From: Deltaproteobacteria bacterium
GTDB taxonomy: Bacteria; Myxococcota_A; UBA9042; DTJE01
Assembly: GCA_029555025.1 (NCBI GenBank)
Contig: JAKPTZ010000045.1
Span: 124,001-188,000, forward strand
DNA: 64,000 nucleotides
Reading direction: 5' to 3'
Each line of letters opens with the position of its first letter. The stretch's first letter is position 1. Below are positions 2,599-20,351 of this stretch, in pieces. Under the pieces are notes generated by a model. It did not search any database. It was not told the DNA's origin and was given only the letters and a program-made list of their open reading frames with translations. The translations under genes and the position numbers were made by a program.

Positions 2599-3480
2599 CT
2601 AGAGGCCGGAAGGGAAATCGATGCCGCGACGCAGGCATGCGGCAATCACGGTATTCCGCATCAGATAGGCGATTGTCATGGGACCGACACCGCCGGGAAC
2701 CGGGGTGATCCATGAAGCCCTGGAGGAAGCTGCCTCGAAATCGACGTCGCCGACCAGTTTGCCGTCCGCCAGGCGGTTGACGCCGACATCGATTACGACG
2801 GCGCCCTCGCGAATCCAGTCGCCCTTGACCATCTGGGGCCTTCCGACGGCGGCCACGACAACTTCGGCCGTCCAGACGACGTCGGCAAGGTTCCTTGTCC
2901 TGGAATGACAGACGGTCACCGTGGCGTGACGCCGCAGAAGAAGCATCGCCATCGGCTTGCCCACAATCAGGCTGCGGCCGATCACCACCGCGTTCCTGCC
3001 CTTCAGGTCGATGCCCGTTTCATCGATCAGGCGGATGCAGCCGGCCGGGGTACACGGTTCCATTCCCGGCCTGTCGGACATCAGCATTCCGAGGCTGAAC
3101 GGATGGAATCCATCGACATCCCTTGCCGGATCCAGGGCGTCCGTGACCTTATCGGGATCTATGTGATCCGGCACGGGCAACTGAACGAGGATTCCGTCAA
3201 CCTCGGGGTCGGCGTTCAATGTCTTAAGAAGGGCCAGGAGTTCGTCCTCCGTCGTGGAGACCGGCAGGCGATGCGTGACGCCGCGGATGCCGACCTCGTC
3301 ACAAGCCTTGCCCTTCATCCTCACATAAACCTGGGAAGCCGGATCCTCACCCACCAGAACGACATTCAGGCATGGAACGACACCCTTTTCACGCAGTTCG
3401 GCGACGGCCCGCGCCACATCGGCGCGAACGCGCGCCGCCACGGCCTTTCCGTCGATCACCTTTGCAATGGATTCTGGCAT
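2599..3480 (-). CDS. folD: Bifunctional methylenetetrahydrofolate dehydrogenase / methenyltetrahydrofolate cyclohydrolase
   Basis: 293 residues, the usual FolD length. It interconverts 5,10-methylene-THF and 10-formyl-THF in the cytoplasm with NAD(P). Family signatures are clear: [14 protein letters not shown] with the catalytic Lys near residue 55, [22 protein letters not shown], the nucleotide-binding [32 protein letters not shown], and the C-terminal [13 protein letters not shown]. It diverges from the glycine cleavage genes, whose product is 5,10-methylene-THF, so the neighbourhood joins production and use of the same one-carbon carrier. The 226-base divergent region holds the likely promoters. 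Confidence 0.97.
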
Positions 3481-3649
3481 GGCTGCCCCCGCAAGAAGAG
3501 AGGCCGGATTCTATACAGCGGGCAACGCCGCGTCAATCGCGCGCGGAGGCGCTTGTGCGCGCAAAAAAATCCTGTACAAAATCGCGTCCGCCACCCCCCG
3601 GCGGATGAAGATGATGGGTACGACAATTCGACATCCCGCTGAATTTTGC

Positions 3650-3676
3650 TTGACCAATGTGCTGTGTTGCTATATT
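3650..3676 (+). promoter_or_regulatory. Candidate sigma-70-type promoter of gcvT
   Basis: TTGACC at 3650-3655 and TATATT at 3671-3676, spaced by 15 bases. The -10 is preceded by TG at -15/-14 (TGC before TATATT), an extended -10 element that tolerates a short spacer. A start near 3683 would leave a leader of about 24 bases before the GTG, too short for a glycine riboswitch. Confidence 0.45.
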
Positions 3677-3706
3677 CGGTGCCCGGTCAACCCCGGAGGT
3701 TTTCAC

Positions 3707-4813
3707 GTGAGCGACCATCCCGAAGCGCGCCGCACGGCGCTTTATGAAGAACACGTCAAGGCCGGTGGCAAGCTGGTGCCGTTTGCCGGTTTCATGCTTC
3801 CCATCCAGTACGAAGGCATCGCGGCCGAGCACCACAGGTGCCGGACGGCTGTCGGCCTTTTCGACGTAAGCCACATGGGTGAAATCGTATTCCGTGGCCC
3901 GGAGGCGGCGAAGGTCGTCAACAGGCTGGTAACGAACAACGTCGTCTCGGTCAAGCCTGGCCGGGCGGTCTACACGCCCTGCTGCAGGCCGGACGGCGGC
4001 ATCGTTGACGACATGATCTTCTACAAGAAGTCCGACACCGAGTGGTTCGTCTGCGTCAACGCATCCAACAAGGACAAGGATTACGCATGGTTCGTCGAGC
4101 AGACCAGGGGCGAATGCGAAGTCGTTGATCTTTCGGAACAGTATTCCCAGATCGCGGTTCAGGGGCCGAACGCGCCGGAACTGCTTGCCAGGGTTCTGGG
4201 AGCGGAAGTCGCCACGATGAAGCCGTTCTGGTTCATCACGAAGGATTACCGGGGCCAGGAAATCATCTTCGCGACGACCGGCTACACCGGCGAGCCCGGC
4301 GGCGAAATCTACGTTCCCAGCGCGGTCGCGGCCGATCTCTGGCGCGAACTGATGGACAAGGGATCCGACCTGGGGGTCGGCCCGATTGGACTCGGCGCCC
4401 GCGACAGCTTGCGCATGGAAATGAAGTACTGCCTTTACGGCAACGACATCGACGACACGACGACGCCGATCGAGGCCGGGTTGCAGTGGACGGTCAAGTT
4501 CGACAAGGGCGACTTCAACGGCCGCGACGTGCACCTGAAGCAGCACGAGGATGGCCCCGCACGCCACCTGGTGCAGTTCGTGGTTGAAGGCAAGGGGGTT
4601 CCCCGCCACAACTACGCGGTGTATTCCGGCGATCGGAAGATCGGACACGTGACAAGCGGCACGATGTCGCCGAGCCTGAAGATTCCAATTGGAATCGCAT
4701 ACGTCGAGCCGCCATTCCAGACGGTCGGCCAGACGTTTGAAATCGATCTGATGGGCCTTCGCCGCGTCCAGGCCCGCGTCGTCGAGGCGCCGGTTTATCG
4801 GAAGGCGAAGTGA
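3707..4813 (+). CDS. gcvT: Glycine cleavage system T protein (aminomethyltransferase)
   Basis: 368 residues. It takes the aminomethyl group from the lipoyl arm of GcvH and passes the carbon to tetrahydrofolate, releasing ammonia. Recognisable segments: LVPFAGFMLPIQYEGI near the N-terminus, GLFDVSHMGEI, FATTGYTGEPGGEIY, GLGARDSLRMEM with the substrate-orienting Arg/Asp region, and the C-terminal barrel with GHVTSGTMSPSL. The start is the GTG at 3707, preceded by CGGAGG at 3694-3699; in-frame ATGs farther upstream would add residues foreign to the family. First gene of gcvT-gcvH-gcvPA. Confidence 0.96.
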   Translation: MSDHPEARRTALYEEHVKAGGKLVPFAGFMLPIQYEGIAAEHHRCRTAVGLFDVSHMGEIVFRGPEAAKVVNRLVTNNVVSVKPGRAVYTPCCRPDGGIVDDMIFYKKSDTEWFVCVNASNKDKDYAWFVEQTRGECEVVDLSEQYSQIAVQGPNAPELLARVLGAEVATMKPFWFITKDYRGQEIIFATTGYTGEPGGEIYVPSAVAADLWRELMDKGSDLGVGPIGLGARDSLRMEMKYCLYGNDIDDTTTPIEAGLQWTVKFDKGDFNGRDVHLKQHEDGPARHLVQFVVEGKGVPRHNYAVYSGDRKIGHVTSGTMSPSLKIPIGIAYVEPPFQTVGQTFEIDLMGLRRVQARVVEAPVYRKAK

Positions 4814-4896
4814 AATTGGAACTGTCCGGCTTCGGACCCGACACTCAGTGGGAGTGATGGCCAGGCCGGTTGATGAAGGATTCAAGGAGGTTACTG

Positions 4897-5292
4897 ATGT
4901 CGATCCCCAAGGAGTACAGGTTCACCGACACGCACGAGTGGGTGAAGGTCGAAGAGGACAACATCGTTTCAATAGGCATCACCGATTACGCGCAGGATCA
5001 CCTGGGCGATATCGTAAGCGTTGAAGCCCCCAGGGTTGGCGACGAAATCGAAAAGGGCGAACCGATCGGCATGATCGATTCCCAGAAGGCATCGACCGAA
5101 GTCTTCGCCCCGCTCACCGGCCTTGTGCTGGAGTCGAACGACCTGCTCGAGGACGATCCCAGCGTGATGAACAGCGATCCTTACGAGGAAGGCTGGCTTG
5201 TCCGCGTGGAAGTCGCCGACATGGAACAGCTCGACGAGCTTATGACGGCCGAGGACTACGAGGAATACCTGGGACGCCTCGAAGAGGAATAG
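4897..5292 (+). CDS. gcvH: Glycine cleavage system H protein (lipoyl carrier)
   Basis: 131 residues, normal for GcvH. The lipoylated Lys sits in IGMIDSQKASTEVFAP, and YRFTDTHEWVK is the family's typical N-terminus. It shuttles the methylamine group between the P, T and L proteins on the lipoyl arm. The ATG at 4897 is preceded by AAGGAGG (4884-4890), a near-perfect ribosome site; an earlier in-frame ATG at 4870 lacks one. It lies 83 bases after gcvT and 67 before gcvPA, so one transcript is likely. The C-terminal tail is acidic. Confidence 0.96.
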   Translation: MSIPKEYRFTDTHEWVKVEEDNIVSIGITDYAQDHLGDIVSVEAPRVGDEIEKGEPIGMIDSQKASTEVFAPLTGLVLESNDLLEDDPSVMNSDPYEEGWLVRVEVADMEQLDELMTAEDYEEYLGRLEEE

Positions 5293-5310
5293 CCCCGGGC
5301 TCCACAGATG

Positions 5311-5331
5311 CCGCCGGAACCGTTGCGGCGG
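5311..5331. other. Small inverted repeat between gcvH and gcvPA
   Basis: CCGCCG at 5311-5316 pairs with CGGCGG at 5326-5331 around a 9-base loop. No T-tract follows, so it is not an intrinsic terminator. It could be an mRNA processing or stability element inside the operon, or chance in GC-rich DNA. Confidence 0.25.
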
Positions 5332-5359
5332 ATACCAATCTTCAGCAGGAGTTTGAGGG

Positions 5360-6685
5360 ATGGACTTCACTCCCCACACGGAAGCTGAAATCGCCGAAAT
5401 GCTTCGAGTGATTGGCGTATCGTCAATCGAGGAGCTTTTCGCCGTGATTCCTTCCGAGTTCAAGGTTAAGGGTTGCATGAACCTTCCGGAGTCTATGTCG
5501 GAAGCCGACGTCCTTGCCCGAATGAAGGAACTGGCGGCCCTGAACATGACGGCGGATCAGTGCCCTTCCTTTCTGGGCGGCGGCGCTTACAACCATTATG
5601 TTCCGGCGGCGATTCATCACCTTGTCGGGCGCGGCGAGTTCCTTACCAGCTACACGCCGTACCAGCCGGAACTGTCCCAGGGCACCCTCCAGGCGCAGTT
5701 CGAATACCAGTCGATGGTCGCCCAGATACTGGGAATGGATGTTTCAAACGCCAGCATGTACGAAGGCGCCACAGCCATGACCGAGGCCTGCCTGATGGCC
5801 CAGAAGCACACCAGGCGAGACATTCTGGCGGTGTCGTCGCTGGTTCATCCGCAGTACATCGACGTGCTCCGGACTTACACTGGCGCCGGCGAAATCGTGA
5901 TGATCCCGGCGGCGCCCGACGGCACCACTGATATGGATGCCGCCAGGCGACTGGTCGGTGACAATGTCGCCGCCGTGGTCGTCCAGACGCCGAATTTCCT
6001 GGGCGTCATCGAGGATGTCCGCGGATTTTCCGACATGATTCACGATGCCGGCGGCCTTAGCATCGTTACGTTCACCGAAGCCCTCGCTTTCGGCCTTATC
6101 GATGCCCCCGGAAACCGCGGCGCGGATATCTGTGCCGGGGAAGGGCAATCCCTGGGAATCCCCCTGTCTTTCGGCGGCCCGTACATCGGCATGATGGGCG
6201 TCAAGCAGGAATTCGTGAAATCGATGCCAGGAAGGCTCATCGGCAAGACGAAGGATCACGAGGGCCGCGACTGCTTCGTCCTTACGCTCGCAGCACGTGA
6301 ACAGCACATACGGCGCGAAAGGGCCAGTTCGAACATCTGCAGCAACGAGGCACTCTGCGCGGTGGCCCTGACGATCTACATGTCGATGCTGGGCAGAAAC
6401 GGATACCCGCGCCTGGCGATGCTGAACCATCTCAAGGCAGAAAGACTGAAGGGAATGCTTCGCGAAGCCGGCTTTGAGCTTCCGTTTGCCGGTCCCACCT
6501 TCAATGAATTCGTCGTCCGGATTGGCGGCGACGCGACCCGTAAGATCCGGGAGCTTGCCGAGCAGGGAATGATGGCCGGCATCGCGCTTGGCTCTTACTT
6601 CCCGCACCTGTCCGACTGCATCCTTGTCGCGGTCACCGAAAAGACCCGTGACGCCGACATGGACGCACTGATTGCCGCCCTTTGA
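5360..6685 (+). CDS. gcvPA: Glycine dehydrogenase (decarboxylating) subunit 1
   Basis: 441 residues, matching the N-terminal half of the P protein in organisms where it is split in two. Hallmarks: FTPHTEAEIAEMLRVIG at the start, FLGGGAYNHYVPAAIHHL, YTPYQPELSQGTLQ, MYEGATAMTEA, and NICSNEALCAVAL. With subunit 2 (GcvPB, which carries the PLP lysine) it decarboxylates glycine and loads the aminomethyl group on GcvH. GcvPB is not downstream: the next gene is an unrelated lipoprotein behind its own promoter, so the partner must be encoded elsewhere. GAGGG lies just before the ATG. Confidence 0.95.
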   Translation: MDFTPHTEAEIAEMLRVIGVSSIEELFAVIPSEFKVKGCMNLPESMSEADVLARMKELAALNMTADQCPSFLGGGAYNHYVPAAIHHLVGRGEFLTSYTPYQPELSQGTLQAQFEYQSMVAQILGMDVSNASMYEGATAMTEACLMAQKHTRRDILAVSSLVHPQYIDVLRTYTGAGEIVMIPAAPDGTTDMDAARRLVGDNVAAVVVQTPNFLGVIEDVRGFSDMIHDAGGLSIVTFTEALAFGLIDAPGNRGADICAGEGQSLGIPLSFGGPYIGMMGVKQEFVKSMPGRLIGKTKDHEGRDCFVLTLAAREQHIRRERASSNICSNEALCAVALTIYMSMLGRNGYPRLAMLNHLKAERLKGMLREAGFELPFAGPTFNEFVVRIGGDATRKIRELAEQGMMAGIALGSYFPHLSDCILVAVTEKTRDADMDALIAAL

Positions 6686-6697
6686 TGGCGTTTGGTA

Positions 6698-6725
6698 TTG
6701 ACTGGCGGTCGGCCTGCTATACAAT
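6698..6725 (+). promoter_or_regulatory. Strong sigma-70-type promoter of the lipoprotein at 6755
   Basis: TTGACT at 6698-6703, a 16-base spacer, and TACAAT at 6720-6725, each 5 of 6 to consensus. It starts 12 bases after the gcvPA stop, so the lipoprotein genes downstream are probably a separate transcription unit with a leader of about 23 bases. Confidence 0.6.
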
Positions 6726-6754
6726 CTATCGGGTGCATTCCATCGGAGGATCCC

Positions 6755-7240
6755 GTGTTGAATCGAACTCTGGTTCCCGTCACTGTTATTGTGGCCGGTC
6801 TTCTGGCTGGCGCGTGCCAGGAGATGGAAGACTTCGGCGAATGCCTTATGACCCAGCAGATGCTGTCTGACTGCAACGCCGGACTTCCCGGGACAACCGA
6901 CCAGTGCTCGACCGAGGACGCGTTCTGCGGCCCGACCTGCATCGTGGCCAATCACCCGGAATGCACATCGGGGCCGTGCCTGACCATCAGGTACAAGGAC
7001 ATCCTGGCCGACAAGACCTGGGTAAGCACCCCGTTCTGCGGCAGCTCGTGCCTGACTGATACCGACTGCCCCGGCGAGCCCGGCCAGGCGGCCTGCAAGC
7101 CGATGCCCGGCCTGAAGATTGAGTGCGAGCTTGACGAAGACTGCCAGGCCCGCGCGGACTGGTCGTTCTGCGGGACGGACAAGTTCTGCTCGTGGCACGT
7201 CTGTGTCCCGATCAATTTTGCCAAAGCGAACCAAGAATAA
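6755..7240 (+). CDS. Small cysteine-rich lipoprotein, function unknown
   Basis: About 161 residues. A short hydrophobic signal segment ends in LLAGAC, a plausible lipobox, so the mature protein is probably lipidated and exported. The rest has many Cys in short motifs (CSTEDAFCGPTC, CGSSCLTDTDC, CELDEDC), suggesting a disulfide-knotted extracytoplasmic domain; similar spacing is seen in the lipoprotein at 58977. Start is GTG 6755 (or TTG 6758) after GGAGG at 6745-6749. I do not recognise a named family. The next small lipoprotein follows 48 bases later. Confidence 0.7.
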   Translation: MLNRTLVPVTVIVAGLLAGACQEMEDFGECLMTQQMLSDCNAGLPGTTDQCSTEDAFCGPTCIVANHPECTSGPCLTIRYKDILADKTWVSTPFCGSSCLTDTDCPGEPGQAACKPMPGLKIECELDEDCQARADWSFCGTDKFCSWHVCVPINFAKANQE

Positions 7241-7288
7241 TTTTCACGCTGGCCACGTTATCCGACCAGGTATCCCGGAGGACTCCCG

Positions 7289-7768
7289 ATGCGAACCGCA
7301 CGCCTGTTCATGATTATTGCCGCCCTTCCACTTGTCGCATGTGCCGCCAGGCAGATCCCCGGAACGGCCGTCGATGACACTCCGGCCAACCGCGACATCG
7401 TCGAGGTCATCGAAAAATACCGCAAGGCCTGCGAGAAGAAGGACATCGACGGCATCCTCGAAGTGGTGTCGAGGAACTACTTCTCGAATTTCGGGACAAC
7501 TTCAAATACCGACGACGATTATGGATACGAGCAGCTCGTCAAGAACATGCTTCCAATCCTTCGTGACGAAATCAAGGCCGTGTCCTATATGGTGTACGTC
7601 AAGAAGATAAGTTTCCCGCGTGAAAATGTTGCATGGGCCGACGTCGAACACTCGTACAAGTTCTACTATGTTGAACAGGGCAAGGATCGCTGGAAGCCGG
7701 GAACCAATTTCAAGCGCTTCGAATTCGCGAAAGAAGACGGCGTGTGGCGGATAACGTCCGGCCTGTAG
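7289..7768 (+). CDS. Small lipoprotein with a probable NTF2/SnoaL-like fold
   Basis: 159 residues. MRTARLFMIIAALPLVACA is a lipoprotein signal (lipobox PLVAC). The mature part begins with NRDIVEVIEKYRKACEKKDI, then an alternating strand-rich C-terminal half ending in FKRFEFAKEDGVWRITSGL. The pattern of one helix pair, an acidic-aromatic segment and four strands ending in a tryptophan resembles NTF2-like or DUF4440-type domains. That is a fold guess; no catalytic residues can be assigned. CGGAGG precedes the ATG. Probably co-transcribed with the gene at 6755. Confidence 0.65.
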   Translation: MRTARLFMIIAALPLVACAARQIPGTAVDDTPANRDIVEVIEKYRKACEKKDIDGILEVVSRNYFSNFGTTSNTDDDYGYEQLVKNMLPILRDEIKAVSYMVYVKKISFPRENVAWADVEHSYKFYYVEQGKDRWKPGTNFKRFEFAKEDGVWRITSGL

Positions 7769-7864: not shown

Positions 7865-10387
7865 ATGAAAAGGGTCGTCGTGGTTGGTGGAGTGGCCGGC
7901 GGGATGAGCGCCGCGGCAAGGGTCAAGAGACTTGATCCGACGGCGGCGGTCACCGTCTTCGAGCAGGATGGCGACATATCCTTCGCCAACTGCGGAATGC
8001 CCTATTACATCGGAGGCGTCATCCAGGACAGGAACCAGTTGCTGGTGCAGACTCCCGAATCGATGAAGGCGAGGTACGGCATCGATGTCCGGATAAGGCA
8101 TCGCGTCACGGCAATCGACAGGATCGCAAAAACCGTGACGGTCCTGGATCGCGACCGCAACGTTGAATTCACCGAACCATACGACGCACTGATCCTTTCG
8201 CCCGGGGCTTTCCCGATCAAGCCCCCGCTTCCCGGCATCGACAGGCCGGACGTATTCATCCTGAAGAACCTTGACGACATGGATCGGATCCGGCAGGCGG
8301 CGGTCAAGGCAAAGCGGGCCGTCGTCGTCGGAGCCGGTTACATCGGAGTCGAGGTGGCTGAAAACCTGCGCCATGCGGGTGTCATCGTGGATATTGTCGA
8401 GAGGCTGGATCAGATGATCGCGCCGCTTGACCCGGAAATGACCAGGCAGCTTTATGACGAGGCGCGCCTTAACCGCGTAAAGGTTCATCTTTCGACCCAG
8501 GTGACATCGTTCGATGACGACGGGGTCCACCTCAGCGACGGTGGGGTGATCCCGGCCGACTTCACCGTCATGTCGGTCGGCGTGAAGCCGGTATCCGGCC
8601 TTGCCGCCCAGGCTGGACTTAAACTGACCGCAACCGGGCACATAATGGTCGATGAACACATGCGGACCAGCGACCCGGCCATATTCGCTGTCGGCGACGC
8701 GGTGGCGGCGTTCTCGCAAAAGACCGGGGGCTACATCGCCAACCCTCTGGCAGGCCCGGCCAACCGGCAGGGAAGGATCGCCGCGGACAACATATGCGGA
8801 CGAGACAGCGTCTATGGCGGAACCCAGGGCACATCCATCGTCAAGATATTCAACCTGGCCGCCGCCGGAACCGGCATGAACGCAAAGGCGCTGAAGGCCG
8901 CCGGCGTGAAGGGGTTCCACACCGCCTGGATTCATCCGAACCAGCACCCAGGGTATTACCCGGGGGCGGCCCCAATCGATATCAAGGTGATATTCGACGA
9001 TGAAGGCCGGATCCTTGGCGCGCAGGCCGTGGGGCGGGAAGGCGTCGATGTCGTCATCAATTCGCTGGCCCAGGCCATGAGGGGCGGCCAGACCGTCTTC
9101 GACCTCGAGGAGGTTGAACTGGCATACTGCCCGGCATGGGGCAATGCGAAGCATCCGATCAACATGGTCGGGTTCGTCGCGGCAAACATACTCCGTGGCG
9201 ACATGGAAGTTATCGAGCCCTGGGAGAAGCCCGACGCATGGCTTGACGTGCGCGAGGCGGACGAGACTGCGGCAGGCATGATTCCCGGCGCGATTCACAT
9301 CCCGATGGGCCAGATCGAATCAAGGCTTGCCGAGATTCCGCGGGACAGCTCCATCGGGGTTTACTGCGCAGTCGGCCTTCGCGGCTATATCGTCTATCGC
9401 CGCCTGAAGAACCTTGGATTCAAGGTTCGAAACCTTAACGGCGGATACAGGACCTGGCGCTGGTTCAACGTTACGGACGAAGTCGCCGACCAGCCTCTCC
9501 TGACCCGGGCACCTGTTGCCGAGGCCGGTGTCGCCCTGCCCGGCCGGGCCGCTTCCGGTCAACCGGGGGCAGCCGCCCGGCAGTCATCCGACCCGGTGAT
9601 GCCGGATCGCACGGTCAAGCTGGACGTGTGCGGACTTCAATGTCCAGGGCCCCTGATGAAGGTCCGGAAGGTCATGGACGACATGAAGGAAGGCGAGGTG
9701 CTCGAGGTGACCGCGTCCGACCCCGGATTCGCGGCCGACATCCCGATGTGGACGCGGCAAACCGGAAACACCCTGCTTGACGTCACCTCGGATGCCGGTT
9801 TGTACAGGGCCGTCGTCATGAAGTCGGGCGGGGCCGCGGCCGCGCCACGCCAGGGTTCCGTCGCGGATTCCGGCGTGTCGGTTTCCGCATCCCCGCACGC
9901 GGCCGGCGGACCGACCGCGAAGGGCAAGACCGTCATCGTGTTTTCCCAGGATCTGGACAAGGTCCTTGCATCGTTCATCATCGCGAACGGGGCGGCCGCG
10001 ATGGGCGCCCCGGTCACCATGTTCTTCACCTTCTGGGGCCTGAACGTGCTGCGAAGGCCCGAAACAGTCCAGGTTAAAAAGACTTTCACCGAACGGGTGT
10101 TCGGTTCGATGATGCCCAGGGGCGCTGGACGATTGAAGATTTCCAACATGAACATGGGCGGGATGGGAACCGCGATGATCAAGCGAATAATGAAGGAAAA
10201 GAATGTCCTTTCGCTTGACGAGTTGATCGGATCGGCCCGCGATTCGGGCATTCGCCTGGTGGCCTGCGCCATGTCTATGGACTTGATGGGAATCAAGGCC
10301 GAGGAACTGATTGACGGCGTGGAGATTGCCGGAGTCGGCAATTACCTTGGAACTGCCGACGAAGGCAACGTCAACCTTTTCATCTAG
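7865..10387 (+). CDS. Four-module sulfur-transfer protein: CoA-disulfide-reductase-like FAD enzyme, rhodanese, TusA, DsrE2
   Basis: 840 residues, cytoplasmic. Residues about 1-445 form a pyridine-nucleotide disulfide oxidoreductase: FAD motif VVVGGVAGGMSAA, single redox Cys43 in FANCGMPYY as in CoA-disulfide reductases and NADH-dependent persulfide reductases, second dinucleotide site VVVGAGYIGVE, and the FAVGDA segment. About 455-550 is a rhodanese with Cys501 in VYCAVGLRGY. About 600-670 is TusA, with Cys593 in CGLQCPGPLMK at its start. About 690-840 is DsrE2-like, with Cys801 in VACAMSMDLMG. Linkers rich in Ala/Gly/Pro separate the last modules. Fusions of this type are known in anaerobes and relatives; the likely role is reduction of, and sulfane-sulfur transfer from, persulfides or polysulfides. 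All four candidate cysteines are present. Confidence 0.93.
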   Translation: MKRVVVVGGVAGGMSAAARVKRLDPTAAVTVFEQDGDISFANCGMPYYIGGVIQDRNQLLVQTPESMKARYGIDVRIRHRVTAIDRIAKTVTVLDRDRNVEFTEPYDALILSPGAFPIKPPLPGIDRPDVFILKNLDDMDRIRQAAVKAKRAVVVGAGYIGVEVAENLRHAGVIVDIVERLDQMIAPLDPEMTRQLYDEARLNRVKVHLSTQVTSFDDDGVHLSDGGVIPADFTVMSVGVKPVSGLAAQAGLKLTATGHIMVDEHMRTSDPAIFAVGDAVAAFSQKTGGYIANPLAGPANRQGRIAADNICGRDSVYGGTQGTSIVKIFNLAAAGTGMNAKALKAAGVKGFHTAWIHPNQHPGYYPGAAPIDIKVIFDDEGRILGAQAVGREGVDVVINSLAQAMRGGQTVFDLEEVELAYCPAWGNAKHPINMVGFVAANILRGDMEVIEPWEKPDAWLDVREADETAAGMIPGAIHIPMGQIESRLAEIPRDSSIGVYCAVGLRGYIVYRRLKNLGFKVRNLNGGYRTWRWFNVTDEVADQPLLTRAPVAEAGVALPGRAASGQPGAAARQSSDPVMPDRTVKLDVCGLQCPGPLMKVRKVMDDMKEGEVLEVTASDPGFAADIPMWTRQTGNTLLDVTSDAGLYRAVVMKSGGAAAAPRQGSVADSGVSVSASPHAAGGPTAKGKTVIVFSQDLDKVLASFIIANGAAAMGAPVTMFFTFWGLNVLRRPETVQVKKTFTERVFGSMMPRGAGRLKISNMNMGGMGTAMIKRIMKEKNVLSLDELIGSARDSGIRLVACAMSMDLMGIKAEELIDGVEIAGVGNYLGTADEGNVNLFI

Positions 10388-10516: not shown

Positions 10517-13114
10517 ATGCGAAGACTGGTTCTGTTGACCACCATTGCCGTTGCCGCCGCCCTGGCCGCGTGCGGGTCGTCCGGTGATCCGATCGAGGAA
10601 GACACCGGAATCAACGAAGTATTCCAGGACTCCGGCAGCGATGTCGGAATCGACACGCAGACCGGAGATGACGCAATCATTGATTCGGGTACCGACAACG
10701 CATGGATGGACGTGCATCTTCCCGACGTGAAGGAAGACATCCCGGAAGGACCTTTTTACGCGAAGGAAGAAGGCGATCTGGTCACCGTGTCCGATGGAAG
10801 GCTGACCGTGGTCCTGAACCTTGCGGACGGCACGTTCAACATCGGCTTCACTCCGGGCCTGGACGGAATCATCAACGGCCATTCCGAAGCCTGGGTTCGC
10901 AGCAGCGAAGGCGTGACCAGGATATCCAGCATGAATCCGGCCCAAAGGGCTGCATGGCAGGCCATGCAGACGACCGACGGCCTTGATGACGGCGTGCTGA
11001 TCGGCATGGAAACCGTTCCAAGCGGCTCGATCGGCGGCATGCGCACCTTCATCGCACTGCACCGCAACCAACCTTCCGTCACGATCAAGGTTCAGCTTGT
11101 CCTGCCGGTTCGGGAAGGCTTCTTCATCGAAAAGCTGGTACCTGTGGTCGCCAGGGGTTCCGAAGGCGCCGGAATGCTTCTGGGCCCGGGAACCGCAACT
11201 GCCAGGATTGTGACCGGCGGCCATGAAATCGCCTATGACGCCAACGCGGAAGCGATTAACGTTACCGAAGCTGTCGAGACATTGAACAAGCCCGGATACC
11301 TTTCCGACAACGCCACGCTCATCTGCACGAAGGCCGGCAAGTGCCTTCTTGCGGGTTTCCTGAATACCGTCCGCGGCTTCGGGGGCGTCGCCGTCGCGAC
11401 CGACCCGGTTTCCGCCTTCGCGGTTGGCGAAGACGCCGCGCTGTCTCTGTTTGAGATGCGCAGCACGATGGTGCAGGGCGCCATGCTCAGTCCGTCACGC
11501 GTCATCACTTCCGAGGTCGCCTACCTCGATTTCACAGGGGAACCGGGGCCGGCGCTTGCCCGCTTCGCCGACGCTATTGCGACTTTCAACACGCTTCCCG
11601 TTCCCAGGGCACTGCCGTTCATGTATTCGGCCAGGGTCGGCCAGGAAGGCCTGACCTCCGATCAGGTCGTTGCGGCCATTCCCGACGATTCTGAAGGCGT
11701 GACCGGATTCCTCGTCGAACAGGGCTGGGAAAATGCGGAGAAAGCTCCCGATGCGGTCAAGTTCCCGAACCATGGTGGAACAGGCGCGATGAAATGGATT
11801 GCCGACCAGGCAAAGGCCGCCGGCCTGGTTCCGGGGATCGCGCTTGGCCCGTTCGTCTTCAAGAATGATTCCGCCTTTGCCGCCACCCATGCGGAATGGC
11901 TGCTCGAACCAGGTGAGCTTGCGGTGGTCAGGCTTGGAATCGGAAACAATTCCAGCATCCTTGACCTTACGTCCGACGACGCAAGGGCATGGGCCGTCGC
12001 GCACGTGACGACTGCCGCGGGGGACTGGGGTTACCGGTATGTCAAGATCCACGGCGCCGATATCGCCTGCATGGCCAAACCGGGATCGACGACGGGAATG
12101 ACCGGCGTCGAAGGGCTGCGCAAGTTCCTCGAGGAAGTTCGCGCCGCCGTCGGGGCCGACGTCTTCATCGAGCTTGCCGATGGCGGAATGATCGGGCTTG
12201 GCCTGGTGGATGCAATCGGAACCGCCGACCCGCAGTACAAATCATGGAATGCCCCGGCGTCGAAGGTTGACAACACGCTGCAGATGGGCGCGATGACCTG
12301 GGCCCGTCGGGCATGGCTTGACGGCACCGTATTCAACGTGGTGCCCGGGCCTGCCTTCGACTTCAGCCAGGACGGCACCCTTACAGCTTCCGGGTGGATT
12401 GGGCCCCGTCTCTGGGCCGTCACCGGCGGAGTTCCGACCATCGCCGAAGCCCAGGGCATCCAGGGGCTGCTTGCCGAACTGGCCGGCAACCCGTTCGGAG
12501 ACGCATGGGCCGGCGACTATGCCGATCTGCGCATTCCCGAAACCTGGCAGGCCGGGTACGAAAGGGACGGCGTCGCATCCTTCCTTGCCGGATTCTTCAG
12601 GTTCGAAGGCAACATGGATCTTTACACACTCGCCCCCGTAAACGGGGCCCGGACACGCACGCTGCAGCTTCCCCAGGCCGAGGGCAACTGGCTTGCGATC
12701 GACCCCGAAACCGCTGAAATGGCGACGGTCGATGGCGCATGCATGAACCCCGCGGGGATGGAACTGGTTCTGGAAAGCGGAAATTCCGCCAGCCGCGTCC
12801 TGGTGCTGCGCAAAATCTCGGCCGGCGGCGCCCCGACCTTCATGGCCATCACGCCATCGATTGCCGGGGGTGACGGTCTGGTAAGCCAGCTCAGCTCGGA
12901 CGCCGGCTCGACCACTGTAACCTATGACGCCTTCTTCAGGGGCGACACGACCGTCGTGTTCGCGGTTCCGGTTGCCAACAGCCCGACCGTATCGGTCGAA
13001 GGCGGCACGATCATCGATCAGGGGGTCTCGGATACGGCTTGCAGCGACATGAAGACAGCCTGGATCAAGTTCACCCCGACCGCCGATTCCGTCACGGTGA
13101 CCGCCTCCAACTGA
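10517..13114 (+). CDS. Lipoprotein with a GH36/alpha-galactosidase-like architecture, probably degenerate
   Basis: 865 residues. The signal ends in ALAAC (lipobox); an acidic Asp/Gly/Thr linker follows to about residue 70. About 75-330 resembles the N-terminal beta-supersandwich of GH36-type enzymes. About 355-620 resembles the barrel: FLVEQGWENA, KFPNHGGTGAMKWI, SILDLTSDDARAWAV, YRYVKIHGADI, then ELADGGMIGLGLVDAIGTAD. In GH36 the nucleophile is the Asp of the K-x-D motif; here that place is His512. A candidate acid/base Asp571 (TADPQ) remains. The C-terminus looks beta-rich. It is therefore a surface glycan-binding or altered glycosidase candidate. ATG 10517 follows TGGAGG. The carboxyltransferase gene begins 36 bases downstream. 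Confidence 0.7.
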   Translation: MRRLVLLTTIAVAAALAACGSSGDPIEEDTGINEVFQDSGSDVGIDTQTGDDAIIDSGTDNAWMDVHLPDVKEDIPEGPFYAKEEGDLVTVSDGRLTVVLNLADGTFNIGFTPGLDGIINGHSEAWVRSSEGVTRISSMNPAQRAAWQAMQTTDGLDDGVLIGMETVPSGSIGGMRTFIALHRNQPSVTIKVQLVLPVREGFFIEKLVPVVARGSEGAGMLLGPGTATARIVTGGHEIAYDANAEAINVTEAVETLNKPGYLSDNATLICTKAGKCLLAGFLNTVRGFGGVAVATDPVSAFAVGEDAALSLFEMRSTMVQGAMLSPSRVITSEVAYLDFTGEPGPALARFADAIATFNTLPVPRALPFMYSARVGQEGLTSDQVVAAIPDDSEGVTGFLVEQGWENAEKAPDAVKFPNHGGTGAMKWIADQAKAAGLVPGIALGPFVFKNDSAFAATHAEWLLEPGELAVVRLGIGNNSSILDLTSDDARAWAVAHVTTAAGDWGYRYVKIHGADIACMAKPGSTTGMTGVEGLRKFLEEVRAAVGADVFIELADGGMIGLGLVDAIGTADPQYKSWNAPASKVDNTLQMGAMTWARRAWLDGTVFNVVPGPAFDFSQDGTLTASGWIGPRLWAVTGGVPTIAEAQGIQGLLAELAGNPFGDAWAGDYADLRIPETWQAGYERDGVASFLAGFFRFEGNMDLYTLAPVNGARTRTLQLPQAEGNWLAIDPETAEMATVDGACMNPAGMELVLESGNSASRVLVLRKISAGGAPTFMAITPSIAGGDGLVSQLSSDAGSTTVTYDAFFRGDTTVVFAVPVANSPTVSVEGGTIIDQGVSDTACSDMKTAWIKFTPTADSVTVTASN

Positions 13115-13150
13115 TTTTTGCCCCGTTTCCCGGGGCGGGACTTGATTGAA

Positions 13151-14803
13151 ATGTCTGCAAAATTGCTCATTCGGGATCTTACCCTTCGCGACGGTCAGCA
13201 GTCCCAGTTTGCCACCCGCATGAACCAGATTCAGGTTGACAGGGTGCTCGGACTGTTCCGGGAGGCCGGCTTTCACGCCATGGAAGTTTGGGGCGGTGCC
13301 GTCCCCGATTCGGTGATGAGATACCTCGGGGAGGATCCCTGGACCCGCCTGGAATCAATAAAGGCCGTCATCGGCGACCGTTCCAGCCTGACCGCCCTGT
13401 CGCGGGGACGCAACCTGTTCGGGTACAATCCTTATCCGGACTCGGTCATCGAGGGCTTCTGCCGCAACGCAGTACAGGCCGGAATCGGGATCATGCGCAT
13501 CTTCGACGCACTGAACGACGTCGATAACATGCGCAGTTCAATCCGCTTCGTGAAGGAAGCCGGAGGGCGTGCCGACTGCGCGGTCTGCTACACGGTCGAT
13601 CCGAAATTCACGCTTGCCGCCAGAATCCGGGCGACGGTTTCCGGCCACCCGCTTCCCCGAAAGGTGTTTGGAGTCGACTACTTCGTTGACAAGGCGGTCG
13701 CCCTCCAGGAAGCCGGCGCCGACATGATTTCCATCAAGGACATGGCCGGGCTGGTCGATCCCGCCACTGCCGGCCTTCTGATTCCGGCACTGAAGAAGCG
13801 CCTGGACATCCCGATCGACATGCACACGCACTGCACGCCCGGATTCGGGGTCGCGACGTGCCTGATGGCGATGGTTAACGGCTGCGACATGATCGATACC
13901 GTCTGTCTGCCGTTTTCGGGCGGACCGGCGGCCCCCGCGTTTGAAATAGTTGAACTTTTCGCGCGCAAGCTTGGCCTGGAGACCGGAGTCGATGCGGCGG
14001 TTGTCACGAAGATCAACCGGGAATTGACCGAGGTCAGAAGGGAACTGGCCGAGTTCGACCAGTTCAAGCTGTTCCCGCGGGAATTCGATCTTTCCAGGGA
14101 CAATCTGCCTGACGATATCGACGCTTTGTTCGATTCGGCTGTCGACGCGGCGCGCGGGTCAAAAATTGACCGGCTTCTGGACTTCTGTCACCGCATCGAG
14201 GCGTGGTTCAATTATCCGCCGCCGGACGAGGTCGTGCGGGTCGCCCAGATACCCGGCGGGATGTACACGAACATGCTGGCGCAGATGAAATCGGCCAACC
14301 TGTCCGTCCACATGAAGGAAGTCATGCAGACGGTGCCATCCGTCAGGCTGGCGGCCGGACTGCCGCCGCTCGTCACTCCGACCAGCCAGATTGTCGGCGT
14401 CCAGGCGGTCATGTGCGTCATCAACCGTCACAAGGGCGTGCCCGTGTGGTCGAATCCTTCGTCGCAGTTCGTCAACCTGGTGAAGGGAAGCTACGGCAGA
14501 ACCCCGGTTCCGGTTGACCCGGACTTCAGACAGATGCTTGCCGGAGTCCGCGAGGAAACACCGTGGGACACGTCAGGATACAAGCCGCAGGAAAATCCGG
14601 AGCTCCCGGAATTCGGGGGCGTCCGACTTGCCGCGAACCCACGGGAGGAATTGCTGCTTGAACTGTTCCCGAATGTGGCCGGCCCCTTCCTCAAGGGCGT
14701 CAGGAAGGCCGAGTTTGAAGCCGAGCGCAGAAGACTTGGGGAAATCGAATCGATGGCCAATGCCGGGCTGTTCACGGCGATAGGCGGCAACTATCTGGCC
14801 TGA
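13151..14803 (+). CDS. Carboxyltransferase-type protein (pyruvate carboxylase B / oxaloacetate decarboxylase alpha-like) without biotin domain
   Basis: 550 residues. N-terminal HMGL-like barrel: LIRDLTLRDGQQS (metal Asp), RIFDALNDV, MISIKDMAGLVDP with the Lys that is carbamylated in this family, and MHTHCTPGFG with the metal-binding His-x-His. The C-terminal half has the conserved PyC_OADA region (YPPPDEV, IPGGMYTNMLAQM, VTPTSQIVGVQAV, GSYGRTPVPVDPDF). It ends without a biotinyl Met-Lys-Met domain, so a separate biotin carrier is needed if it moves CO2 between a keto acid and biotin. Start is ATG 13151 after a GGGGCGGGA stretch that also forms a small hairpin (GCCCCG/CGGGGC). Its last 13 bases overlap the convergent gene's 3' end. 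Confidence 0.88.
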   Translation: MSAKLLIRDLTLRDGQQSQFATRMNQIQVDRVLGLFREAGFHAMEVWGGAVPDSVMRYLGEDPWTRLESIKAVIGDRSSLTALSRGRNLFGYNPYPDSVIEGFCRNAVQAGIGIMRIFDALNDVDNMRSSIRFVKEAGGRADCAVCYTVDPKFTLAARIRATVSGHPLPRKVFGVDYFVDKAVALQEAGADMISIKDMAGLVDPATAGLLIPALKKRLDIPIDMHTHCTPGFGVATCLMAMVNGCDMIDTVCLPFSGGPAAPAFEIVELFARKLGLETGVDAAVVTKINRELTEVRRELAEFDQFKLFPREFDLSRDNLPDDIDALFDSAVDAARGSKIDRLLDFCHRIEAWFNYPPPDEVVRVAQIPGGMYTNMLAQMKSANLSVHMKEVMQTVPSVRLAAGLPPLVTPTSQIVGVQAVMCVINRHKGVPVWSNPSSQFVNLVKGSYGRTPVPVDPDFRQMLAGVREETPWDTSGYKPQENPELPEFGGVRLAANPREELLLELFPNVAGPFLKGVRKAEFEAERRRLGEIESMANAGLFTAIGGNYLA

Positions 14804-17524: not shown

Positions 17525-18598
17525 TCAGAAGCGTCGGAACCAGTACTGATAGATCATCGGCTTGCCGTTCACCGTGATACCCGAGACCGTGACATCATAC
17601 CGCACACCCTTTTTCGTGGGTCCCGCCTTGAACCAGAGACAGTTCGGGACACCGTATCCCTGGGTGTCGTAACCGATATCGGAAACCGCGATTGAAGCAC
17701 CTCCCTCTTCCTTGACGGTGACGGCGGGCGACGTGAACCGCACGTTTTCATCCCCGTTCTTCCATTTTGAAGACTTGTCGGCGATTACCGAAAACGACAT
17801 GTGTGCCTTGTCGGTATAAAGCGCTTCAGGGTAATCGTGGAAAGGATAGGCGACATAGCCGTCTTCCATGCTGACCGAACCGCTGCCGGAGCCTTTCCAG
17901 ATGACCTTCATCGATGCGGCGGTGTACTTGCCCTGGAAATCATCGACACGCGCGAACGCCGTCTTCTGAAGCCACGGATCCAGGAACCATCGACGATGCC
18001 CGACCGCATCCACATTCTCATCACGGATGAATCCATCGACGATGCCGGCGGTCGGATAACCGACCGGGGCCTTTCCATACTGCAGGTGCAGGTTGCTGCT
18101 GCCGCATCCGTCCGCGGCCAGTTGCGTATAGCAGGGCCAGTTCTCGTCCGGATAGTGGCTGAGCATCCTTTTTGAAACACAGGTAAGGGAACAGGCCGCG
18201 ACCTCGGCATCACCCGAATCGTCATACCAGACCTCGGGCAGGCCGTGCAGGGATCTCACGTAGTTCAGGCGATCAAGGGCAAGTTCCTTCTGGTATTCCG
18301 TGTTCTGGCCAGGCTCGCAGGATGCCAGATCGGGAAACATTCCGTCCTCGTAAAGCCCGGTATTGACTGGCTGACCTTCGTCCGCGCCCGGCTCGCCCGG
18401 ATCCGGCGCGCCATGATCCTGGCCTTCATCCCGCGGGACTGGAACATCAATCTGTTCAAGGACATCGGGTTCCCCGGCTTCCACGCCGCCATCACCGACG
18501 GCCGCGACGTCCGGAAGCCAGGGCTCATCCTGCCCCCCGCAACCCGGAACCACAATCATCATCAAGGCCGCGGTGGCCGTCACTGTCATAACTCGCAT
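17525..18598 (-). CDS. CAP-domain (SCP/PR1-like) lipoprotein
   Basis: 357 residues. The signal ends in VVPGC (lipobox). An acidic Asp/Glu/Gly/Pro linker follows (to about residue 80), then a CAP fold with ELALDRLNYVRSLHGLPEV, MLSHYPDENWPC and the characteristic AVGHRRWFLDPWL. Bacterial CAP proteins are secreted and often bind ligands or other proteins; enzymatic roles are rarely proven. A C-terminal beta-rich region of about 120 residues (from VDDFQGKYTAAS) follows. ATG 18598 is placed by the signal peptide and by the promoter 34 bases upstream. It diverges from the lipoprotein at 18747. Confidence 0.85.
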   Translation of the reverse strand: MRVMTVTATAALMMIVVPGCGGQDEPWLPDVAAVGDGGVEAGEPDVLEQIDVPVPRDEGQDHGAPDPGEPGADEGQPVNTGLYEDGMFPDLASCEPGQNTEYQKELALDRLNYVRSLHGLPEVWYDDSGDAEVAACSLTCVSKRMLSHYPDENWPCYTQLAADGCGSSNLHLQYGKAPVGYPTAGIVDGFIRDENVDAVGHRRWFLDPWLQKTAFARVDDFQGKYTAASMKVIWKGSGSGSVSMEDGYVAYPFHDYPEALYTDKAHMSFSVIADKSSKWKNGDENVRFTSPAVTVKEEGGASIAVSDIGYDTQGYGVPNCLWFKAGPTKKGVRYDVTVSGITVNGKPMIYQYWFRRF

Positions 18599-18631
18599 GC
18601 ATATCCCCGCAGGTCGCAACTGTCGGCCTGC

Positions 18632-18659
18632 ATTATATTCGATGTCAGTCTCACGACAA
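18632..18659 (-). promoter_or_regulatory. Sigma-70-type promoter of the CAP-domain lipoprotein
   Basis: On the minus strand, TATAAT (perfect -10, plus-strand 18632-18637) lies 16 bases from TTGTCG (4 of 6, plus-strand 18654-18659). Transcription would start near 18625, giving a leader of about 27 bases. Confidence 0.6.
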
Positions 18660-18746
18660 CGTTCGACAGTCACTGCCTGTTCAAAAAGGAACCGTTGAAA
18701 ATCCCGGGCATCACTGCAAAAATGTTGCGGACAACGGAGAAATCCC

Positions 18747-20351
18747 ATGCAGAAATTTCCCCGCAGAATTCTCGGAATTCTTGTTACCGGCCTGCTGCTT
18801 GCAGGCGCTGGATGCCCCGGCGAACCCCAGGAAGTTGTGATGCCGGATCTGCCGGAGTGGTTTCCAGACAAGCCACAAAGCCCCGACTTTGCCCTGCAGC
18901 GGAAGGATGGCGGAACTTTCCCGACTCCGGAGGAAGTTGACGGATTCACAGAAACCTACTCGTCCTTCCTCAAGCGGACCGACTTCATCGGCTGGATCGA
19001 CCGTCATGCTCAGGGCCTGGCGCCGGACAATCCCTGGGGGATGTCTGACTACAAGATCTGGTGGGCCCAGGCATTCATGACCAGAAGCGGCGATCTGGTC
19101 ACCCTTGCTTTCAGGGGACCGCCCGACAACACGACACAGAGCGTGGGCCGGGTACTTGGCGCCACGGCCGGTCTGTACATGCAGTCCGAAGACGAGACCG
19201 CGCGGAATCTCTCAATGGGGCTTGTCCGTGGACTGTCCGCCACCTTTGACGGAATGATCTGGGGCGACGAGGATCCGGTCATTGACACGATAATGGCCAG
19301 GACAATCTTCAACCGAAGTCACGAAACCATGCTGCGGGGCAACAGACGCCTGTTCGTGGACTACGAAGGCGTCCGTTTCGAGGAAGTCGAACTCAGGCAC
19401 GACACAATCCACAACCGGGACAATCCCACCTGGGGCGACATATTCGTCCGGAACAAGAGATCAAAGGACGATTTTCCCTTTCTTTATCGAAACATGGCCA
19501 TGCTGGTCGAACTGGCCTTCAGGACGGACGATCCCGAAGTCAGGCGCGACATTGTCAGGCTGGTCGGACAGGTCCGCGGCATGACGGCCGACATCGTCGA
19601 ACACGACTACTGCATCCGGACAAAGGGCTTCGATTCGAAGCCCTACATCCCGTTGATGCAGGATGGAACGGTCGAGGACTTTGCCACCTACCGGGCTTAC
19701 GAATCGTTCGTGCCCCTGGGCGAGTGCACGGGAAAACTTTCGACCGCATACCTGGCATCCGGCGAGGCATTGGGAAACGTCTGTGAAAACGCCGACACCG
19801 CCTTTTACGGCGACGGATACCTGTATGAGGAACTCGCGATTGCGGCGCATTTCTGCGCGACCGACCTGATCTGGAACTACCATGTGGCGGCGCTTGCGAT
19901 GGCGCTGCTTTTTGACGACATCGAAACCGCCAGGAAACTCGTCGAAGGACTTGCGGCCAGGATTGACGGCCTGTGGATCGACGAAAGGGCGGCCGATTAC
20001 CCGGAATGGTGGCCCGAGGTGGCCCAGCTCCTGGTGCTCTCGGCCGCCTACGGAATGCCCCTGACCGGGGACGAAGCAAGGCTGATTCAGTCCGTATGGC
20101 GCGACTCGGCCGTATTCTATCAGGACTCGGTATGCTGGGATCCCTGGGATCCATCCGTTCCAGACGGCACCGTCTGCGAGGTGATGCCATCACGCTATGA
20201 AACGGACGACCAGGGCCAGACGACGCGCGCGCACACCAGGATCGAGGAGTTCCTGAGCCCGTTCGAGTATTGCGCGTCGCCATACCGGGCGACCACCGGC
20301 GCGATGTTCGTGAACTGTGAAAGGCTTGTTGCGGCCATGATGGATCGCTGA
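18747..20351 (+). CDS. Lipoprotein of unknown family, paralogue of the protein at 23903
   Basis: 534 residues. MQKFPRRILGILVTGLLLAGAGC is a lipoprotein signal. The mature protein has many short amphipathic helices and paired motifs shared with the lipoprotein at 23903: NPTWGDIFVRNKRSKDD (near 19420-19475), a Leu/Ala-rich helical region around LVEGLAARIDGLW, YGMPLTGDEARL, and a C-terminal CASPYRATTGAMFVNCERL. The helical character suggests an alpha/alpha barrel or repeat scaffold, as in some carbohydrate-active enzymes, but that is a guess. ATG 18747 follows GGAG. The GAF and MBL-fold genes follow closely on the same strand. Confidence 0.75.
   Translation: MQKFPRRILGILVTGLLLAGAGCPGEPQEVVMPDLPEWFPDKPQSPDFALQRKDGGTFPTPEEVDGFTETYSSFLKRTDFIGWIDRHAQGLAPDNPWGMSDYKIWWAQAFMTRSGDLVTLAFRGPPDNTTQSVGRVLGATAGLYMQSEDETARNLSMGLVRGLSATFDGMIWGDEDPVIDTIMARTIFNRSHETMLRGNRRLFVDYEGVRFEEVELRHDTIHNRDNPTWGDIFVRNKRSKDDFPFLYRNMAMLVELAFRTDDPEVRRDIVRLVGQVRGMTADIVEHDYCIRTKGFDSKPYIPLMQDGTVEDFATYRAYESFVPLGECTGKLSTAYLASGEALGNVCENADTAFYGDGYLYEELAIAAHFCATDLIWNYHVAALAMALLFDDIETARKLVEGLAARIDGLWIDERAADYPEWWPEVAQLLVLSAAYGMPLTGDEARLIQSVWRDSAVFYQDSVCWDPWDPSVPDGTVCEVMPSRYETDDQGQTTRAHTRIEEFLSPFEYCASPYRATTGAMFVNCERLVAAMMDR

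Follow-up and report, generated by a model that had tools for sequence, protein, structure and literature searches.

A GH36-like lipoprotein of Myxococcota with a degenerate active site, a likely pseudoenzyme

Background

The closest described systems are the GH36 alpha-galactosidases, represented by TmGalA (1zy9/5m0x) and 6lcj. In TmGalA, according to the accessible parts of PMC6089974 and PMC5132143, Asp327 is the nucleophile and Asp387 the acid/base, and the ligand is contacted by Asp220, Asp221, Trp257, Lys325, Arg383 and Tyr191. An active retaining GH36 enzyme is taken here to carry the nucleophile Asp at the end of beta4 within a K-x-D motif, an acid/base Asp with an Arg four residues before it, and an Asp-Asp pair together with a Trp contacting galactose O4/O6.

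In GH97, a related family, the base has moved off the nucleophile position, as far as the accessible text of PMC2670981 describes it; the beta5 motif is HE in inverting and HG in retaining members. The same text reports six GH97 "outliers" which appear to be without the usual catalytic groups, five of them having HD at the beta5 motif. Inactive members of GH18 and GH13 are mentioned there as known pseudo-glycosidases (PMC2670981, accessible parts). By titles and abstract openings in the open-access literature, no account of a GH36 lineage without activity came up, and one may still exist. The known examples of pseudo-glycosidases are mostly eukaryotic.

The gene and its GH36 homology

The gene studied here is located in a stretch of 64,000 nucleotides (the window) from a genome of the phylum Myxococcota. 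Its open reading frame (10517-13114, + strand) extends from ATG at 10517 to TGA at 13112-13114, with a product of 865 aa. The layout is as follows, the three domain limits having been drawn by us from the alignment.

10517..10573, + strand: lipoprotein signal peptide, residues 1-19, with lipobox LAAC and lipid-bearing Cys19 (from sequence)
10574..10753, + strand: Asp-rich linker, residues 20-79 (from sequence)
10754..11602, + strand: N-terminal domain, residues 80-362, the best-conserved part (67% identity to the sister species)
11603..12556, + strand: GH36-type (beta/alpha)8 barrel, residues 363-680, with degenerate active site
12557..13111, + strand: C-terminal domain, residues 681-865

A preliminary description of this DNA had called the product a GH36-like lipoprotein, and both parts of the name hold. 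The lipobox-like LAAC ends in Cys19, which is present in all 22 aligned homologues with a letter at that column, and the sequence is significantly similar to GH36 enzymes: phmmer matches GH36 chains of the PDB at E 4e-8 to 1e-7, the nearest solved relatives being the alpha-galactosidases 6lcj, 6gta, 1zy9 and 5m0x over residues 397-571, and hhalign aligns the catalytic relatives over the full length (E 1.2e-80). The Pfam Melibiase family scores 13.1 bits for the window protein, below its cut-off of 27 bits, and 32.8 bits, above the cut-off, for the sister-species protein; NCBIfam returned no GH family. By its position, the N-terminal domain would be the beta-supersandwich of GH36.

The relatives were aligned with MAFFT as a set of 42 rows, which are the window protein, its sister and 40 others, taken from the loci read after removing duplicates and matches above E 1e-10. 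Matches occur in 112 of the 377 genomes of the phylum, and only part of these loci were read into the 42-row set; further degenerate members may exist. A scan of genome contigs for relatives recovered the sister species alone, two scans of viral contigs for additional relatives returned none, and a plasmid search gave only distant GH36 enzymes.

On the whole, the window protein resembles the GH36 alpha-galactosidases in barrel sequence, in the strand with K-x-[D] and in the N-barrel-C order, while it differs in being a lipoprotein with an Asp-rich linker and in having the nucleophile, the acid/base, the Asp-Asp pair, Trp257 and Arg383 replaced. Five lipoproteins of the same family in Myxococcota (L003-L007) are alike in signal type, length, domains and overlapping neighbourhood, with about 30-33% identity; unlike the window protein, they keep all catalytic and galactose-binding motifs and have longer pocket loops. 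The GH97 outliers also have a related barrel without the Asp of (K/M)(I/V)DF, and the acid of their HD motif (5/6) is a further likeness; however, they belong to another family and have Gly rather than His or Tyr in the nucleophile column, in KXG(Y/F) (PMC2670981, accessible parts). The inactive GH18 and GH13 members and Klotho, from what the accessible accounts give, are likewise glycosidase folds with another function instead of the usual catalysis, but in other families.

Loss of the catalytic and galactose-binding residues

The positions below correspond to functional residues of TmGalA.

12050..12052, + strand: His512 (codon CAC), catalytic nucleophile position, TmGalA Asp327 by alignment
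12230..12232, + strand: Pro572, acid/base position, TmGalA Asp387 by column (MAFFT and hhalign), directly preceded by Asp571
11717..11722, + strand: Glu401-Gln402, replacing the Asp-Asp galactose-binding pair (alignment columns)
11840..11842, + strand: Ala442, replacing TmGalA Trp257, also Ala in the sister
12218..12220, + strand: Gly568, replacing TmGalA Arg383, Ala in the sister
12044..12046, + strand: Lys510, equivalent to TmGalA Lys325, sole survivor of the seven TmGalA residues mapped

The segment YVKIHGADI had been read as carrying His512 at the nucleophile position, which the comparison confirms, as His512 aligns with TmGalA Asp327 and no nucleophile Asp ends the K-x-D strand. In the phmmer alignment the pairs are Lys325-Lys510, Asp327-His512, Trp257-Ala442 and Arg383-Gly568, with the TmGalA numbering shifted by a 12-residue tag whose length was deduced from the chain length. 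The alignments place His512, not Asp515, in the nucleophile column, and the stretch from Lys to His is gap-free. A check of the homologues for the same His found it in none: the sister has Tyr and all 40 others have Asp. Both His (CAC) and Tyr (TAC) are one base away from GAC. Since the His is not conserved, with Tyr in the sister, His-based chemistry is unlikely.

The acid/base candidate Asp571, thought at first to be kept, turns out to lie one residue off: the acid/base column holds Pro572, with Pro in the sister as well and Asp in 39/39 others with a letter, the remaining row being truncated. Profile-profile alignment independently reproduces the pairing of Pro572 with the acid/base Asp of the relatives. 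Column 571 itself is Asp here, Met in the sister and Leu in 22 of the other rows. At the column four residues before the acid/base, where 39/39 others with a letter have Arg, Gly568 stands here and Ala in the sister.

The galactose pocket is altered too, a point that the preliminary description had missed. Column 401 is D in 40/40 others and column 402 is D in 38 and N in 2, while the pair is Glu-Gln here and Asp-Gln in the sister; the Trp is also absent. The Asp-Asp motif was equated with Asp220-Asp221, and column 572 with Asp387, by motif and column. The likely columns of Trp190 and Tyr191 (373 and 374, assigned without alignment mapping) read Arg-Val here and Thr-Val in the sister, with Trp at 373 in 39/39 others with a letter. 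The sister species repeats every loss at these columns except at 401, where Asp remains, which speaks for more than chance; several lost columns have an identical replacement in both species (Gln402, Ala442, Gly513, Pro572 and Gly611). The pocket loops are shortened against the intact relatives, for example by 7 residues after 378 and by 7 after 644. Sequencing error as the cause of the losses was rejected, because identical losses are found in the sister genome. Loss of the retaining GH36 mechanism is well supported. The earlier choice between a binding protein and changed chemistry still stands as a pair of options, but its premise of a single swapped nucleophile beside a kept acid/base does not, as both carboxylates are gone together with almost all of the galactose pocket.

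New acids and predicted structure

Four barrel columns (515, 552, 555 and 662) are acidic in both members of the pair but in no more than 10% of the 40 relatives. Of these, 515, 552 and 555 fall in the beta4 and beta5 motifs, where the active site used to be (hypergeometric 6e-4, with the segments chosen post hoc).

12059..12061, + strand: Asp515, new acid common to the sister only (alignment)
12170..12172, + strand: Glu552 on beta5, new acid common to the sister only (alignment)
12179..12181, + strand: Asp555 (Glu in the sister), new acid at the end of beta5 (alignment)

Column 555 directly follows the column with Cys in TmGalA-like relatives. An inverting GH97 enzyme would have a Glu base in HHET, a Glu acid and a calcium site; here the acid position is Pro572, and by eye the protein has no HHET.

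Structure prediction gave poor models. AlphaFold2 reached a mean pLDDT of 34 with the full protein and one relative, and of 46 with the barrel only (residues 360-682). In this poor barrel model beta4 spans 508-512, with His512 last, and beta5 spans 550-554; the ten-residue blocks with these two strands score 45-70. With the same poor model, the best 8 rows of Foldseek are all GH36 alpha-galactosidase or galactosaminidase chains, while VIA-align returns general TIM barrels only, the GH36-type 9ayu (Z 8.0) and the putative melibiase 4ogz (Z 7.9) both being tied with unrelated rows.

Selection and descent

The reading frame is open without stops in both species, which share 51% identity. Over residues 25-865 the pair has a dN/dS of about 0.31 (dN 0.47, dS 1.49), and by domain the NG86 values are about 0.17 for the N-terminal domain, 0.36 for the barrel and 0.55 for the C-terminal domain; synonymous sites are near saturation and these absolute values are rough. 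The ratio of dN in the barrel to dN in the N-terminal domain is 1.95 for the pair, against 0.33-1.15 with a median of 0.59 in 434 non-independent intact pairs, and the identities of the N-terminal domain, barrel and C-terminal domain are 67/46/38%, against for example 38/52/33% for L027-L009. Therefore constraint on the barrel has weakened or changed, and the N-terminal domain is strongly held. Catalytic residues lost in a gene that is maintained would mark a pseudoenzyme, and the present sequences combine the two.

In the maximum-likelihood tree the window protein and its sister are joined at 100/100, and the pair groups at 100/100 with L003-L007, the five intact members of its family. The stem of the pair measures 1.28 changes per column, with tips of 0.50 and 0.43, and the letter make-up of the pair is flagged as unusual in the tree analysis. 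The genus is sampled by two genomes, the window's own (G000) and that of the sister (G001), and both have the degenerate form. In the window a SnoaL-like gene (7289-7765) is followed by a reductase-rhodanese-TusA-DsrE fusion and then by the pseudoenzyme gene, and the flanks match in the sister species, with the fusion gene upstream and a PYC_OADA-type gene downstream. The SnoaL-like gene adjoins the intact gene in all five relatives, and a 25.6-32 kb block of the window is near the intact gene in all five as well; the glycine-cleavage genes are seen in three of them (L063-L065). Intact tree neighbours of the same family, together with shared neighbouring genes, therefore point to an orthologue that lost catalysis. 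This fits better than an origin as a spare duplicate, which was rejected in its simple form because the clade has no second member in either genus genome. Both genomes of the genus do contain a different GH36, from another clade, with K-x-D-F and DDGY, and therefore the genus did not just lose GH36 altogether. Besides, the window's genome has L027, a related lipoprotein from another clade in which every motif is kept.

Possible functions of the degenerate protein

We consider it likely that the protein is a pseudoenzyme which has taken on a binding or scaffold role in the envelope. Its ancestor would have been a secreted GH36 alpha-galactosidase-like enzyme, passed on vertically, and on the stem of the genus it would have lost its nucleophile, its acid/base and almost every contact to galactose. 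The three-domain scaffold would have been retained under selection, in a protein that is now presumably an envelope-anchored lipoprotein, with alpha-galactoside hydrolysis probably gone. A binding or scaffold role on the cell envelope, with a probable surface location, would rely on the conserved N-terminal domain and on a barrel pocket that is reshaped and lined with acids, whose putative ligand may be something other than galactose, or a cation. Several points count against a pseudoenzyme: the trait is carried by two sequences only, synonymous sites are near saturation, the structure models are not trustworthy, and the dN/dS of the barrel and the C-terminal domain is above that of the N-terminal domain, which is also compatible with slow decay. 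A gene in decay, its activity lost, barrel selection relaxed and the gene heading for loss, would account for the shortened pocket loops and for a barrel and C-terminal domain that are faster relative to the N-terminal domain than in intact relatives; but all 865 codons remain open in the two species, whose proteins are 51% identical, dN/dS is well under 1 in all three domains, and several lost columns have the same replacements while the gained acids are common to both species, so that we hold decay to be improbable.

The new acids raise the question of relocated chemistry. That the genus remodelled the active site, giving up the two catalytic carboxylates along with the galactose binders and gaining three acids at the beta4 and beta5 tips, is a doubtful proposal; if true, the site would be a metal- or cation-binding pocket, or the protein would be an enzyme of glycosidase fold whose carboxylates are arranged in a way unseen in GH36. 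An enzyme with another substrate or mechanism whose pocket is rebuilt with Asp515, Glu552 and Asp/Glu555, comparable to the move of the base in GH97, seems to us quite unlikely. It agrees with the position of three of the four pair-specific barrel acids at the ends of beta4 and beta5 and with the retention of Lys510, and column 555 may be the counterpart of GH97 Glu508, a match from motifs rather than from overlay (PMC2670981, accessible parts). However, the acid/base column is without an acid, with Pro in both species, while GH97 enzymes retain that acid according to the same accessible text, and most of the galactose binders are lost. A further reading would make the protein a normal GH36 enzyme with misaligned catalytic Asp residues, Asp515 being the nucleophile and Asp571 the acid/base. 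Asp515 is conserved in the pair three residues on from His512, and Asp571 is one residue off the acid/base column; yet the nucleophile motif is aligned alike by MAFFT, phmmer and hhalign, and the acid/base motif by MAFFT and hhalign. In addition, the sister has Met where Asp571 stands, and the counterparts of Asp221, Trp257 and Arg383 are lost too, which leaves this reading very improbable.

As a likely pseudoenzyme, the protein offers a traceable case in which a bacterial glycosidase has changed while its clade offers no obvious duplicate as a spare. The five intact sister enzymes and the two degenerate members make up a before-and-after set with overlapping neighbourhoods. The case also calls for caution in annotating such Melibiase-like lipoproteins as alpha-galactosidases.

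Neighbouring genes

Some further observations concern the surroundings of the gene. Window 2599-7768 holds folD, gcvT, gcvH and a gcvP half gene, and behind these a pair of small genes, one of them SnoaL-like; the two small genes remain near the GH36-like gene in other genera. The fusion gene at 7865-10387 (+ strand) encodes 840 aa with pyridine nucleotide-disulfide reductase, rhodanese, TusA and DsrE-like domains, and its counterpart adjoining the pseudoenzyme gene in the sister genome is 70% identical. Directly after the pseudoenzyme stop there is a PYC_OADA/HMGL-like carboxyltransferase gene (13118-14803, + strand). Elsewhere in the same genome, locus L066 (G000:C153:17696-20272 holds the gene) encodes a second GH36-like lipoprotein with all catalytic motifs. 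In addition, a CAP-domain (cysteine-rich secretory protein) gene is present at 17525-18949 of the window on the - strand.
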